DNA from: Verrucomicrobiota bacterium
Lineage (GTDB): Bacteria; Verrucomicrobiota; Verrucomicrobiia; Chthoniobacterales; UBA10450
NCBI GenBank assembly: GCA_003220005.1
Contig: QHRD01000003.1
Coordinates: 1 to 64,000, forward strand
Direction of reading: 5' to 3'
DNA: 64,000 bases
Position numbers and translations under genes: made by a program. Below are positions 5,249 to 61,065 of this stretch, piece after piece. Under the pieces are notes generated by a model. That model was not told the origin of the DNA and did no database searches. It saw only the letters and a program-made list of their open reading frames with translations. Numbering within the stretch: position 1 is the first letter of the stretch; the number at the start of each line of letters is the position of its first letter.

Positions 5249-6325
5249 ATGAACCTCGCCGGGGCTTTCGTAGCCAATTGCTTCTTTGCATTCATGCTCT
5301 TTAGTGCAGTCCCGAAAGCTTTCGGGACGCCCGCCCAAGAACCGGCTGCTGCGGAGACGCGCCCTGAAAATCAGCCAGACATGGAAACAAAAAAGATTGG
5401 ACTCGTTGTCCACGGCGGCGCCGGGACTATTGAGCGCAGCAAGATGACACCGGAAAAAGAGCGCGAATATCGCGCGGGACTCGAGCGCGCTCTGACAGCT
5501 GGTTACGAAACTTTAAAGCGCGGTGGTTCGAGCCTTGACGCTACGGAAGCGGCCGTGCGCGTGCTCGAAGACGATCCTCACTTCAATGCAGGACGTGGTT
5601 CCGTGTTCACAAGCGCCGGCACGAACGAGATGGACGCTTCAATTATGGACGGCAAAACGCTTAAAGCCGGAGCGGTCGCCAGTTTGAAACACGTGAAAAA
5701 TCCAATCGACCTGGCCCGACTGGTCATGGAGAAATCGCCGCACGTCATGCTCGATTGCGCGGGCGCAGAAGCTTTCGCGAAAGAAAATGGGATCGAGCTT
5801 GTCGATGAAAAATATTTTTTTACGCAGGAACGCTGGGACGCGTTGCAGAAAATCAAAGAAGCGGAAAAGCACGGTGGCGTCGGCGGCAAGCAGTTTTTCA
5901 TTTCGGAAGACGATCGCCACGGGACCGTCGGCGCTGTCGCATTGGATAGGAACGGAAATTTAGCCGCAGCAACTTCCACCGGCGGAATGGCAAACAAGTT
6001 ACCCGGGCGAATCGGCGACACGCCGGTCATCGGCGCCGGCACCTACGCGAACAATCAAACCTGCGCGGTGTCCTGCACCGGCGACGGCGAGTATTTTATT
6101 CGTGCCGGCGTGGCGCATGAGGTCTCGACGCTGATGGAATATCGCGGCATGAAATTGCAGGAAGCGGCGCAGACAGCTCTGGACGCGGTTAAGAAACTTG
6201 GTGGCAGCGGCGGTTTGATTGCCATCGACAAAAACGGCGCGGTAGCTTTGCCCTTTAACACAAACGGGATGTACCGCGGCTACGTCGATCCAAACGGCAA
6301 GTTTGTGATCCAGATCTACCGGTAG
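5249..6325 (+). CDS. Isoaspartyl peptidase / type III L-asparaginase, exported
   Basis: This Ntn-hydrolase removes beta-aspartyl dipeptides or asparagine. HGGAGTIE near the mature N-terminus and HGTVGAVALD around residue 226 are the family landmarks. The Thr of GTVGAV is where the precursor is expected to cleave itself and become the nucleophile. NAGRGSVF and GDGEYFIRAGVA are also typical. I chose the ATG at 5249 because it gives a clean signal peptide (AGAFVANCFFAFMLFSAVP) with an AFG-type cleavage region; a longer frame opens at 5150, overlapping the divergent promoter space. The product is probably periplasmic. A palindromic repeat follows the stop codon. Confidence 0.88.
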   Translation: MNLAGAFVANCFFAFMLFSAVPKAFGTPAQEPAAAETRPENQPDMETKKIGLVVHGGAGTIERSKMTPEKEREYRAGLERALTAGYETLKRGGSSLDATEAAVRVLEDDPHFNAGRGSVFTSAGTNEMDASIMDGKTLKAGAVASLKHVKNPIDLARLVMEKSPHVMLDCAGAEAFAKENGIELVDEKYFFTQERWDALQKIKEAEKHGGVGGKQFFISEDDRHGTVGAVALDRNGNLAAATSTGGMANKLPGRIGDTPVIGAGTYANNQTCAVSCTGDGEYFIRAGVAHEVSTLMEYRGMKLQEAAQTALDAVKKLGGSGGLIAIDKNGAVALPFNTNGMYRGYVDPNGKFVIQIYR

Positions 6326-13794: not shown

Positions 13795-16134
13795 CTACTC
13801 GCGCAATTCCGCGCCGAGGTCTCGCCGCAATCGCTCGCGAATTTTCGCGTGTGCCACGGTTACCTCCTCGTTTGTGAGTGTGCGACTTCGCTCTCTATAT
13901 GTCAATCGATATGCAAGCGACTTTCGCGCTGCGCCGATTTCGCCGCCGCTAAACAAATCGAACAGCTCGACGCCTTCCAAGAGCGGTTCGCGCGGTTCTT
14001 CGATGGCCCGCAAAATATTTTCGTGCGGAATTTCCTCGGGAACAATCATCGCAATATCGCGGGTGACAGCCGGAAATTTCTCGATCTCGCAAAACTTTGT
14101 CGCCAGTTCGTCGCGCATTAAAAGAAGGTCCGCGTGCACCTCCGCAACAAGCACCGTGCCAGGCGCATCAGATTTTGCGGCCGAGAGCTGTCCGCCAAAA
14201 CCGATCATTTGGTCGCCCGAGAAAACATCGACCGGTAGCGCGAGACCGGGAAATTTCCCGGGGCGAAATGAGAGACTCGGAACGACGCATTCCAACGCGC
14301 CCTTGAGATCGAATAGATCAAGACTGCGGCTTTGGGGGGATCGCCAATTTGGGGCGCTTGCAACATTTCCCCAGAGCAAAATTCCCAGATGCCGTTCTTC
14401 CTTACCGGATGGCGGAATAAAGGTGCGTCCGATTTCGAAAATGGCGACGCGTTCTGCGCTGGCGCGAATATTGCGATCGAGTACTTCTAACAATCCTACG
14501 AGAATGCTTGGGCGCAGCGCGACATGATCTTCGCTGAGCGGGTTCCGCAATTCGATAGCGCTTTCGCTGAACGCGAATCGTTCGCGTGCCAGTAGTTTTG
14601 AAGTCCGCACTTCATCGAGCCCGAGTGCTGCCAGGCGCTGACACCACGTCGATTCCAAATCATGCGCATGGTCGGCGATGCTCGCCGGCGTGAAACGGCT
14701 TCGATTTGTTCCCGCAATTTTGTCGGCTCCATAAGCGCGTACGACTTCTTCAACAAGATCGACATCGCGCTGCAGATCGCGGCGATAACTCGGAATCTTC
14801 CATTTTGCCGTTCTGGCCGCGCTCATTTTACGTAAACCAAATCCGCTCAGAACCTCGTCAACGGTTTTGGATTTGATCGTGACTCCGATTACGCGATCGC
14901 ATTTTTCGTAACTCAACGAAACGTCTGGAGGGTTCGCCGGAAGTTTGCCAGCGATGTTAATCTCCTTTGCCGGAGTTCCGCCTGCGATCTCGCGAATCAA
15001 TTCACTCGCGCGCGCTGATGCGCGTAACACCATTTCGGGATCTACTCCGCGTTCGAACCGATAACTCGCGTCGCTCGGCAGATTCAATTCGCGCGCAGTG
15101 CGCCGAATGCTCGCCGGCAAAAAGTAAGCGGCTTCCAGCAAAATGTTTTTCGTCGAGTCCGTTACCCCGGTTTCTTCGCCGCCCATCACGCCGCCGATCC
15201 CGACAGCGCATTCCTGATCGGCGACGACGCACATTTCCTTCTTTAGTGAGTAAGTTTTGCCATCGAGCGTTAGAAATTTTTCGCCGTCGCGTGCGAGCCT
15301 CACATTGATCGCGCCTTTCAGTTCGTCTGCATCGAACGCGTGCGTCGGCTGACCGAGCTCGAGCATCACGAAGTTTGAAATGTCCACGATATTGTTGATC
15401 GAACGAATACCGACATTCTCGATTTTCGCGCGCAACCACTGTGGACTTGGGGCGACTGTCACGTTGTCGATCCTGCGCGCGGAGAAAAATGGGCATTCAC
15501 GCGGCGCGGATATCGTCACACCCTTCTTTTGTAGGGCAGGCGCTCCGCCTGCCGGCAAGCGATGCGCTTGCCCTACATTTTTTTGATTCGTGAGCGCTGC
15601 AATCTCTCGCGCCAGCCCGAAATGACTCAGCAGATCACCGCGATTCGGCGTGATCTCGACATCGAGGATCGTGTCGCTTGGAAATAAATCTGAGATTGGC
15701 GTGCCGACTTTGGCATCTGGCGACAAAATCAACAGACCCGACGCATCTTCGCCGAGGCCGAGCTCGATTGGGCTGCAAAGCATTCCTTCCGATTCAATGC
15801 CGCGCAGTTTGCTTTTTCGAATTTCAGTTCCGTTTGGCAATTTTGCGCCCGGCAGCGCGAGCGGAACTTTGTCGCCGACTTTGTAATTGGTCGCACCGCA
15901 AACGATTTGCCGTTTTGTTCCACTGCCATCATCGGCTTCACAGACCGTCAGACGGTCCGCATTCGGATGACGCGATGACGCAGTGATCTGCGAAACGATC
16001 ACCCTCTCGAAGATCGCGCCGCGCGTCTCGATGTTCTCGGTCTCCACACCCGCGCGTGTCAGTAGCTCGGCGATCTCCTCCGGATTTTTTGGAAGCTCGA
16101 CGAACTCGCGCAGCCAGTTAACAGAGAATTTCAT
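13795..16134 (-). CDS. pheT: Phenylalanyl-tRNA synthetase beta subunit
   Basis: This 779-residue subunit charges tRNA-Phe together with PheS as a heterotetramer. The N-terminus (MKFSVNWLREFV) leads into the tRNA-binding OB domain (about 40-150), then the B3/B4 editing region, the B5 domain, the catalytic-like core (SDASYRFERGVDP) and the C-terminal anticodon-binding FDX-ACB domain (KFPAVTRDIAMIVPEEIPH). A palindromic repeat is inserted in frame near residues 188-202, adding a short VGQAHRLPAGG-type segment without disrupting the frame. The gene follows pheS after a gap of about 93 bp filled with dispersed repeats, and a structured RNA lies downstream. Confidence 0.95.
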   Translation of the reverse strand: MKFSVNWLREFVELPKNPEEIAELLTRAGVETENIETRGAIFERVIVSQITASSRHPNADRLTVCEADDGSGTKRQIVCGATNYKVGDKVPLALPGAKLPNGTEIRKSKLRGIESEGMLCSPIELGLGEDASGLLILSPDAKVGTPISDLFPSDTILDVEITPNRGDLLSHFGLAREIAALTNQKNVGQAHRLPAGGAPALQKKGVTISAPRECPFFSARRIDNVTVAPSPQWLRAKIENVGIRSINNIVDISNFVMLELGQPTHAFDADELKGAINVRLARDGEKFLTLDGKTYSLKKEMCVVADQECAVGIGGVMGGEETGVTDSTKNILLEAAYFLPASIRRTARELNLPSDASYRFERGVDPEMVLRASARASELIREIAGGTPAKEINIAGKLPANPPDVSLSYEKCDRVIGVTIKSKTVDEVLSGFGLRKMSAARTAKWKIPSYRRDLQRDVDLVEEVVRAYGADKIAGTNRSRFTPASIADHAHDLESTWCQRLAALGLDEVRTSKLLARERFAFSESAIELRNPLSEDHVALRPSILVGLLEVLDRNIRASAERVAIFEIGRTFIPPSGKEERHLGILLWGNVASAPNWRSPQSRSLDLFDLKGALECVVPSLSFRPGKFPGLALPVDVFSGDQMIGFGGQLSAAKSDAPGTVLVAEVHADLLLMRDELATKFCEIEKFPAVTRDIAMIVPEEIPHENILRAIEEPREPLLEGVELFDLFSGGEIGAARKSLAYRLTYRERSRTLTNEEVTVAHAKIRERLRRDLGAELRE
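15531..15576. repeat. BIME-like element (two REP hairpins, GTAG...CTAC) inside pheT
   Basis: The 46-bp element reads GTAG, stem GGCAGGCG/CGCCTGCC with loop CTC, stem GGCAAGCG/CGCTTGCC with loop ATG, then CTAC. It is therefore two GTAG-headed hairpins facing each other, the classic BIME layout. On the coding strand it is translated without a stop as VGQAHRLPAGGAPAL. Confidence 0.88.
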
Positions 16135-31753: not shown

Positions 31754-31799
31754 GTGTGTCTTAATTCGGCAAGAAAATCAATATTGAATACGCTGTGCT

Positions 31800-31849
31800 G
31801 TGGCATCGGCTTCCAGCCGATTGGATTGGCAGGGATGCCAATGCCACTA
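31800..31849. repeat. BIME-like element that overlaps the stop of the phosphatase-like gene
   Basis: Stem ATCGGCT/AGCCGAT with loop TCC and stem ATTGGCA/TGCCAAT with loop GGGA stand back to back, flanked by GTGGC and GCCAC. On the minus strand the head GTAG supplies the TAG stop of the phosphatase-like gene (31847-31849). Confidence 0.7.
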
Positions 31850-33139
31850 CAGCTCACTGCGGAGTACGTTAAAAACTACTGTGCTATCGACTACCCCTTG
31901 CAGAACGTCCGTCCCGGGGCCACTGCCGAATACAACGACGTCGTCCACGGTGGGCAGCGCCGATTTTGTGTACAGTGCGGCCGGCTCCAAATTTTCTGCC
32001 GGTTGTTCATTCTGTCCGCCAAAGGACGGAGCCGCCGTGGCGGACGTGTTATTCGGAACGTTCGCTGCTCCATAAGACCTTGTGCCGTGCGGCCCGGTCG
32101 CCCAGGTAATCCAGGGTTGGCCCGCAGAATTCAGCCCAAGCAACGCGATGCCGCTGTCCTGTCGAAATGGGAAACCATTCAAATTCATGCCACCAATTGC
32201 GACATCGCCGCAGACAATGATTGTCGATTTTTGTCCCGCGTAGCGTCGGGCAAGGGCGACGGCGCGATCTAATTCAAGCGTTTGCACGAGTGTCCTCTCT
32301 CCGTTGTTTTCCCGGGCCGCTTTCCGCATCAGACCAGCATCAACCACGAGCAGGTATCCGCCTGCGTTATATTGCAGCAGTTGGATCGCTCGCCGCACCA
32401 TGTCTGAAAGATTCGGTTGCTGACCGCGCTCTTCGAGCTGATTTGCGAACGCCAGCTCCGCATTGTTAAAAGAGCCAAAAAGCTTCGGCCGCCGCCACGC
32501 CGGGATCGCCTCTAGCTCGGCTCGGGTACGAACGATATCAAAACCGTTACCGCGGAGCTCGAGCAAAAGATCGCGTCTATCCTGTCTCTCGCCACCCTTT
32601 GCAGCGGGAAGGAATTGCGACGTGCCACCGCCCATCGCGATGTCGATCTTTCCTCCATCGACAAACTCGGCGGCGATCTTCTCGATATCGTTCGGATCGG
32701 CCGGATGGGCATAAAAAGCGGCGCTTGTAGGATCGGTCAATTTTGTGTCGGTCACGAGGCCAGTCGCGCGTCCATAGTAGCGAGCTAACTCAATAATGCT
32801 CGGTATGGGTTTCTTATCGCCATTAATCGCGATCGCGCCGTTGGGCACCCTCGTGCCTGTGGCAATTGCTGTGGCGGCAGCAGCCTCATCTGGAGCCGCG
32901 AAATCTTTCGAGTAATTCGTCACCAAAGCCATACGAGGCATCGAATCCAAGCTCAGGCGCGTGCCTGCGCCTCCCGCGTAAGCGCGCGTCGTGGCCAGTC
33001 GATCCGGCGCGAGCCCTTCGCCGATAAACAAGATAATTCCGAACGGCTTCCGAACGACCCAATGTCGAAAATAAAGAACGCCCAGCCCGGCAAAAACAAG
33101 GAGACAAAAAAGCGCCAGCAACTGGTTGCGCCATTTCAC
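31847..33139 (-). CDS. Alkaline-phosphatase-fold protein lacking the catalytic residues
   Basis: This 430-residue protein is anchored by an N-terminal span (LLALFCLLVFAGLGVLYF), so it faces the periplasm. The fold is that of alkaline phosphatase: GIILFIGEGLAP aligns with the usual FIGDGM. PDEAAAATAIATG aligns with TDSAAxATAxATG, so the phosphate-accepting Ser is Glu (E85). The metal site that usually reads VEGGRID...H is VVDAGLMRKAARENNG here. The TADHG motif has become VCGDVAIGG, and the last metal His before the VxVFxxGPG segment is missing. Hydrolysis is therefore unlikely, and a binding or scaffold role is more plausible. The reading frame is intact and full length, arguing against simple decay. 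It is divergent from gpmI. Confidence 0.82.
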   Translation of the reverse strand: MKWRNQLLALFCLLVFAGLGVLYFRHWVVRKPFGIILFIGEGLAPDRLATTRAYAGGAGTRLSLDSMPRMALVTNYSKDFAAPDEAAAATAIATGTRVPNGAIAINGDKKPIPSIIELARYYGRATGLVTDTKLTDPTSAAFYAHPADPNDIEKIAAEFVDGGKIDIAMGGGTSQFLPAAKGGERQDRRDLLLELRGNGFDIVRTRAELEAIPAWRRPKLFGSFNNAELAFANQLEERGQQPNLSDMVRRAIQLLQYNAGGYLLVVDAGLMRKAARENNGERTLVQTLELDRAVALARRYAGQKSTIIVCGDVAIGGMNLNGFPFRQDSGIALLGLNSAGQPWITWATGPHGTRSYGAANVPNNTSATAAPSFGGQNEQPAENLEPAALYTKSALPTVDDVVVFGSGPGTDVLQGVVDSTVVFNVLRSEL

Positions 33140-57362: not shown

Positions 57363-58025
57363 ATGCTTTACATCGTCGCTACACCGATTGGCAATCTGGG
57401 CGATATCACCTTGCGTGCGCTAGACGTACTGAAATCGGTCGATCTCATCGCTGCCGAAGATACGCGGCACTCAGGGATGTTACTCAAGCATTTCGGAATC
57501 AAAAAGCCTTTCATCAATTATCACGAGCATAATGAAGCAGCGCGCGCGGCGGAACTAGTGGAACGCCTCGCACGCGGCGAGAACGTCGCGCTGATTACAG
57601 ACGCCGGAACGCCGGGACTGTCCGACCCGGGGCTGCGCCTCATCCACGAATGCATTCAACGCGAAGTCCCGTTTACGATCATCCCCGGGCCATCGTCAAT
57701 CCTGACCGCGCTTATCGGTTCCGGATTTTCAACTGAGAAATTTTCCTTTCGGGGATTTCTTCCGGTCAAAAGCGGACAGCGCGAGCGCGAGTTGCGAGTA
57801 GCGGCTGATCGCGAGGAGACCGTAATCTTTTTCGAGTCGCCTTACCGACTAACTAAGACACTCGCCGCTTGCATTAATGTGATGCCGGACCGACAACTTT
57901 GCGTCGCGCGAGAGCTTACAAAAAAATTCGAGGAGTTCCGCCGCGGCACTGCCAGCGAGCTCCTCACGCATTACGAAGCCCATCCGCCGAAAGGCGAGAT
58001 CGTGCTCGTGATCTCGGAAAGGTAG
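57363..58025 (+). CDS. rsmI: 16S rRNA (cytidine-2'-O)-methyltransferase RsmI
   Basis: This 220-residue SAM enzyme 2'-O-methylates C1402 in the decoding centre. The family signature is complete: YIVATPIGNLGDITLRALDVLKSVDLIAAEDTRH is the N-terminal core, then SDAGTPGLSDPG-type ALITDAGTPGLSDPGLRL, and IPGPSSILTALIGSG. EETVIFFESPYRL follows. The C-terminal helical tail is shorter than in E. coli RsmI, ending GEIVLVISER. The TAG stop at 58023-58025 lies inside the GTAG head of a palindromic element, so the element may have set the present C-terminus. Confidence 0.95.
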   Translation: MLYIVATPIGNLGDITLRALDVLKSVDLIAAEDTRHSGMLLKHFGIKKPFINYHEHNEAARAAELVERLARGENVALITDAGTPGLSDPGLRLIHECIQREVPFTIIPGPSSILTALIGSGFSTEKFSFRGFLPVKSGQRERELRVAADREETVIFFESPYRLTKTLAACINVMPDRQLCVARELTKKFEEFRRGTASELLTHYEAHPPKGEIVLVISER

Positions 58026-58071
58026 GGACGCCGCGCTGCGGCGTCCGGTCGGCGCAGCGCGCCGACCCTAC
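58022..58071. repeat. BIME-like element that supplies the rsmI stop codon
   Basis: GTAG, stem GGACGCCGC/GCGGCGTCC with loop GCT, stem GGTCGGCGC/GCGCCGACC with loop AGC, then CTAC: 50 bp, both stems perfect. It has the same plan as the element in pheT but different stems. It may also act as an RNA end-stabilising hairpin. The rest of 58072-58311 shows nothing clear. Confidence 0.88.
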
Positions 58072-59544: not shown

Positions 59545-61065
59545 ATGAAAACAAAAGTCGCCATTATCGGAGCTGGTCCAGCGGGTTTGACGGCGGGCTA
59601 TCTTCTTTCGAAGGAAGACGTGGATGTCGTCGTTCTCGAAGCCGATCCGATTTATGTCGGCGGTATTTCCCGAACCGTTACTTACAACGGTTTCCATTTC
59701 GATATCGGCGGGCACCGTTTCTTTTCCAAATCCAAAGCAGTGGAAGATCTTTGGACCGAGATTTTGCCTAACGACATGATGGTACGGGCACGTTCGTCGC
59801 GGATTTTTTACGGCGGCAAATTTTTCTCCTATCCGCTGAAGCCGTTTGAAGCACTACTGAAGCTTGGCGTTATCAGGTCGACCTTTTGTGTTCTCTCGTG
59901 GTTAAAAGCGCGTCTCTTTCCGGTGCGAAATCCGCGCAATTTCGAAGAGTGGGTAAGCAATCAGTTCGGCAAACGGCTCTTCAACACGTTCTTCAAGAGT
60001 TATACCGAAAAGGTCTGGGGGATGAGCTGCAAGGAAATTTCCGCGGACTGGGCCGCGCAGCGCATCAAAGGGCTTTCGCTAGGCAGCGCGATCAAGAACG
60101 CGCTGATTCCGCAGCGCTACAACGGCGACCGCAGCAAAGTCATCAAGACGCTCATCCATTCCTTCCGCTATCCGCGGCGGGGCCCAGGCATGATGTGGGA
60201 AATGTGCGCCGATAAAATGAAAGCGCTGGGCGGCAAGCTTGAGATGGGCTGCAGAGTAACGCGCTGTTTGTATGACGAAGTCTTGGGCAATTGGACGGTC
60301 GAATACAAAGATCGCCAAGGCGATCTGCAAACAATCGAAGCCGAGCACATCATTTCATCCGCGCCGATGCGGGAACTGGTTTGCGGTTTATCGCCAGATG
60401 TGAGTGAGCGAACGAAACTCGCGGCCGAAAACCTCAAGTATCGCGATTTCATCACCGTGATGTTGATCTTGAAAGATCGGCAGATGTTCGATGACAACTG
60501 GATCTACATTCACGATCCCAGCGTGAAGGTAGGACGTGTTCAGAATTTCCGTTCCTGGTCGCCCGAGATGGTGCCAGAGCCTGACAAGGCTTGTTATGGC
60601 CTCGAGTATTTTTGTTTCGCAGGCGATGGACTGTGGGAATCGAGCGACAGCAGGTTGATTGAACTCGCCCGCAGCGAATTGATTCAGATCGGTCTGGCCA
60701 AAGAAGGCGATTTCATCGATGGCTGCGTCGTTCGTCAGAAGAAAGCGTATCCAGTTTACGACGACGATTACGCGCGGCATGTCGCCACGATCCGCGAGGA
60801 ATTGGAGACACGTTATCCGAACCTGCATCTCGTCGGTCGCAACGGCATGCATAAATACAATAATCAGGACCACGCCATGATGACGGCGATGTTGTGCGTG
60901 GAAAACATTCTCGCCGACGCGAAGCTCTGCGATCTCTGGCAAGTCAACAGCGACGCCGAGTACCACGAACAAGGTCCCAGCGCGGCCGAGGAACCCAATG
61001 GCACCGCGCTACGCCTCATTCCCACTCGCGTCGTCGCTGCGACCGAGCTCGCGCCGGAAGGCTAG
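59545..61065 (+). CDS. FAD-dependent oxidoreductase, UDP-galactopyranose mutase/protoporphyrinogen oxidase-like
   Basis: This 506-residue flavoprotein opens with [19 protein letters not shown] (dinucleotide glycine motif). [29 protein letters not shown] and, near the end, [21 protein letters not shown] (FAD contact) follow. [31 protein letters not shown] is the substrate-domain signature seen in UDP-galactopyranose mutase-like enzymes of polysaccharide clusters. The exact substrate is not readable. A likely role is sugar-nucleotide or lipid-sugar modification together with the adjacent PIG-V-like transferase, six bases upstream. The tail after DPxxx is polar and probably disordered. Confidence 0.87.

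Follow-up and report, generated by a model that had tools for sequence, protein, structure and literature searches.

The palindromic elements known as GTAG REPs have been described by Di Nocera, De Gregorio and Rocco (2013), who state that the termini of these elements often supply the TAG stop codon of flanking ORFs (PMC3733652). In the same text, the verrucomicrobium Opitutus terrae is listed as GTAG-rich, with intragenic copies (PMC3733652). For E. coli, a study cited in PMC12306157 reported that REPs located within 15 nt of stop codons stall ribosomes. In those REP transposases that have been studied, cleavage takes place at CT or CA, and GTAG acts as a guide inside the element (PMC8266576).

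The window analyzed here, a stretch of 64,000 nt, belongs to contig C49 of a soil verrucomicrobium (assembly size 2.53 Mb, about 82% complete). It contains rsmI, which encodes the 16S rRNA (cytidine-1402-2'-O)-methyltransferase (57363-58025, plus strand, 220 aa; TIGR00096, 1.2e-73). The closest named relatives of this rsmI are from uncultured Verrucomicrobia MAGs, and Chthoniobacter and Terrimicrobiaceae are more distant. A search of the literature on Udaeobacter palindromic repeats found nothing.

At its 3' end rsmI overlaps with a 50-nt element on the plus strand (58022-58071), which consists, in this order, of GTAG, GGACGCCGC-GCT-GCGGCGTCC, GGTCGGCGC-AGC-GCGCCGACC, and CTAC. As the preliminary description had stated, the TAG of the GTAG head (58022-58025) is the termination codon of rsmI (58023-58025). 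The head is located directly 5' of the first of two short hairpins (58026-58046 and 58047-58067), each with a perfect stem of 9 bp and a loop of 3 nt, and the terminal CTAC (58068-58071) is the GTAG head, on the minus strand, of a second, inverted REP. Two inverted GTAG palindromes are thus joined in a single unit with their heads pointing outward, an architecture known as a REPIN or GTAG REP dimer. The element is of the GGTAG family and not of the YTGTAG family, and an Rfam search with it returned no match. We consider it probable that this is a non-autonomous, REPIN-like dimer of the GTAG type, which was inserted with its head on the rsmI stop codon, preserved the end of the protein, and probably stabilises the 3' end.

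The strong fold of this region immediately 3' of the stop codon (-44.5 kcal/mol, z = -4.4) would also fit a native intrinsic terminator of rsmI that is not a mobile element. Such an origin is highly improbable: the hairpin is missing at most orthologous rsmI ends, it was not picked by a terminator scan, and exact copies occur elsewhere in the genome. The 25-mer that forms the first half of the element, GTAGGGACGCCGCGCTGCGGCGTCC, has five exact copies in the 2.53 Mb assembly, and its reversed control has none. As a T-run is absent downstream, the combination of a G+C-rich stem with a T-run was not found and an intrinsic terminator was rejected.

A second GTAG element in the window (31798-31850, minus strand), whose hairpins have longer loops, also lies on a stop codon (TAG 31847-31849). 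It terminates an alkaline-phosphatase-like gene (31847-33139, minus strand, 430 aa) with the C-terminus LRSEL, and the gene end reads GAGCTG-TAG-TGGCATTGGCA with the TAG inside the GTAG head, in agreement with the preliminary description. Two further gene ends had been listed there as similar cases, and for these the agreement was partial. The isoaspartyl peptidase gene does end in CGG-TAG (6323-6325) followed by a repeat tract, but this tract is a TGTCATGTCGAGC repeat; the stop of gcvP (CC-TAG) does lie within a repeat, TGTCATTCCGAGCGAAGTCG, but a GTAG head is absent. The space that separates gcvP from its convergently oriented neighbour (59545-61065 downstream, 61121 downstream) contains repeats of a second family, represented by TGTCATTCCGAGCGAAGTCGCGGAATCTCTAGG and its variants, with the gcvP TAG inside them; another variant extends from 6326 onward, after the isoaspartyl peptidase stop. 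The window also contains a GTAG REP dimer inside a gene: the copy at 15531-15576 is in frame within pheT (13795-16134, minus strand) and encodes VGQAHRLPAGGAPALQ, and the resulting PheT retains end-to-end alignment to solved PheT chains.

Beyond the window, GTAG preceded a hairpin more frequently than any other 4-mer did in a sample of 0.8 Mb (68 of 2761 occurrences, or 2.5%, compared to a background of 0.29%). As in described GTAG REPs, the copies are dispersed and mainly intergenic, with 65 of 84 GTAG heads at stops or in intergenic regions, and heads on the same strand as the gene cluster at or just 3' of stop codons.

The placement of heads relative to stops was quantified on 746 gene ends in 1.01 Mb, called by our own codon-usage ORF caller and not by an annotation pipeline, on contigs that represent ~40% of the assembly (about 1.0 of 2.53 Mb). 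A hairpin directly follows the stop codon at 10 of the 82 GTAG stops, compared to five of the 662 other stops. Relative to same-strand stops, 10 heads were found at offset 0 and 17 across all offsets from 1 to 60 (Poisson, 7e-13); the spike persisted when the denser local background of offsets 1-21 was used as reference (Poisson, 6e-10). Based on this hairpin enrichment and the offset-0 spike, a mere chance overlap of heads and stops was rejected: the excess of heads on stop codons, which a genome-wide count had been proposed to reveal, is real. Guanine also precedes TAG stops more frequently than TAA or TGA stops (83/208 versus 121/538, p = 4e-6), an excess that was absent from the small samples of outgroup loci in which it was sought.

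The preliminary description had suggested that elements inserted at 3' gene ends reset C-termini, in effect as a portable cassette of stop codon plus hairpin. If so, orthologues lacking the element should differ in C-terminal length. For rsmI, they mostly end at the same residue: of 21 orthologues from the same genus, 14 have their C-terminus at residue 220, and none of these 14 carries an intact element (the counts for the genus, here and below, are not phylogenetically independent). One of them (L102) has a degenerate element whose GTAA head still serves as the stop codon, and nine of the other 13 stop at TAG. Since relatives without the element stop at the same residue, it appears from these alignments that the rsmI element kept the protein end rather than changed it. 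For the phosphatase-like gene, 21 orthologues from the same genus have an unbroken 3' end, and all of them encode the same last residue, mostly followed by TGA. Among the genes of the orthologue test, which were hand-picked from the head-on-stop list and not drawn at random, kdsD and opcA also share their terminal residue across the genus with or without an element, and the last residue of two further genes near rsmI is equally unaffected. No heads, out-of-frame ones included, occurred within the final 60 nt of genes (offsets -60 to -1), a further point against C-terminal resetting.

Some loci did conform to the cassette proposal. A holin-like protein terminates at a head, 7 aa beyond the C-terminus of its closest orthologues. 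A threonine-dehydratase-like protein and LspA have short tails that vary, with elements that differ between orthologues and are read in different frames; for the dehydratase, the ends range from -3 to +2. Seven of the 21 rsmI orthologues are longer, and two of these end in RGD or GSGD through a TGA within a hairpin loop, which looks like part of another element family. At three loci, L094 and L107 (both rsmI) and L221 (lspA), members of the GTAGNGGCGATTGACC family carry two stops in different frames, a TAG and a TGA in the loop, the latter yielding RGD or GSGD ends; in three rsmI orthologues of the same genus (L095, L099, L108), the C-terminus is 9-25 aa longer. Judging from the compared sequences, preservation of the C-terminus is the rule, and shifts by a few residues are the exception at a minority of loci. 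The cassette reading, refuted for rsmI and the phosphatase, is therefore an unlikely general account that stands for this minority only, and the rsmI element does not act as a C-terminus-resetting device, occasional small shifts aside.

Another explanation reverses the roles of gene and element: a pre-existing (YT)GTAG stop could have been the target on which the element docked, so that it became the head and the element acquired its stop from the gene. Hairpins are carried by 12.2% of the GTAGs at stops and by 5.5% of other intergenic GTAGs (p = 0.026). Against this intergenic yardstick the spike is weaker, at about the level expected from the abundance of GTAG sites, and is compatible with docking on GTAG stops that were already there. 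The TAG stops of most element-free rsmI orthologues and the prevalence of TAG among those of opcA point in the same direction, as does the opcA stop itself, where different elements in several relatives all begin at the same nucleotide. However, the phosphatase gene of the nearest relative (G010, 93-95% identical) ends in CTC-TGA, most empty phosphatase and kdsD orthologues have no TAG, and in the REP transposases studied so far GTAG is a guide inside the element, with cleavage at CT or CA. Overall, rsmI and opcA lean towards docking and the phosphatase towards a head that replaced the old stop. When intergenic empty sites were aligned, these regions, at this evolutionary distance, often proved to contain different elements in different relatives. 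We regard docking as a reasonable possibility, albeit not the favoured one.

The nucleotides in front of the heads bear on both options. CT or TT precedes GTAG in 39 of 58 intergenic heads, compared to 165 of 916 background GTAGs, and the commonest head is thus YTGTAG, which reads as Leu-stop when in frame. Consistently, YTG is found before 20 of 208 TAG stops and before 15 of 538 other stops (p = 3e-4), and the kdsD, opcA and phosphatase products terminate in Leu in same-genus relatives irrespective of the presence of an element. Tentatively, insertion next to the YT with which a terminal Leu codon (CTN or TTR) begins might regenerate the final residue together with a stop, regardless of the stop codon used before, and thereby permit scarless entry and repeated occupation of one stop by different family members, as at opcA. 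Docking on an existing YTGTAG would equally restore Leu and stop. This Leu-stop detail, on genes that already end in Leu, was not found in the literature searched.

In the explanation that we prefer, end-preserving insertion, a RAYT-like single-strand transposase would have moved the rsmI element. We infer the insertion itself from comparison with relatives of which the closest share 80-95% protein identity. Insertions in which the head supplied an in-frame stop just where the protein naturally ends would have been retained because they left the protein unchanged. The result would be a strong hairpin immediately adjacent to the stop codon. Its probable effect is to stabilise the 3' end of the mRNA or to slow the ribosome during termination, as was reported for E. 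coli REPs. Two observations count against this explanation. Heads lie exactly on stops at a higher density than expected under a model of neutral insertion, as selection can only remove insertions. Furthermore, the Y1 transposase that was found is flanked by a hairpin family other than that of rsmI. This IS200/IS605-type gene (150 aa, C123:156-497; L006 141-593; G000 contig C123) lies between GGTAGCCTGGGGC... and an inverted copy, whose stem sequence differs from that of the rsmI element, in an assembly that is about 82% complete. In L006 (1-700), the 150-aa transposase is flanked by inverted GTAGCCTGGGGCAACGCCCCAGGC hairpins, and from its sequence the locus is likely a REP-transposase unit.

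That GTAG REPs supply stop codons has already been published; a quantitative and comparative test is added here, which attaches numbers and orthologues to a passing remark of 2013. GTAG REPs are far commoner on stops than at neighbouring positions, yet protein ends are usually unchanged, and this combination argues for tolerated or stop-directed insertion and not for C-terminal remodelling. Annotators should be aware that an element may be the source of a TAG stop or a short tail at such a site, and the Leu-stop heads, be they target or cargo, offer a concrete test of site choice by REP transposases.

Among known systems, palindromic QMITE1 and QMITE2 elements of Coxiella similarly overlap gene 3' ends and sometimes change the C-terminus, but they are longer MITEs of another type without a GTAG head (PMC5896051). 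With the E. coli REPs of the study cited in PMC12306157, the rsmI element shares a hairpin that adjoins the stop codon; in E. coli, however, the stop codon precedes the REP, whereas here the head is the stop. REPINs and REP pairs mobilised by RAYTs likewise consist of two inverted REPs as a unit (PMC3116915, PMC2817692), and the Y1 transposase resembles REP-associated transposase genes in lying between inverted GTAG hairpins, with flanking stems that are not those of the rsmI family. The GTAG REP superfamily, as covered by the available text of PMC3733652, likewise has GTAG-tagged palindromes, frequent dimers and locations mostly 3' of genes; compared to that text, the elements described here belong to another genus and have other stems, and the counts of stop use and the orthologue test are new.
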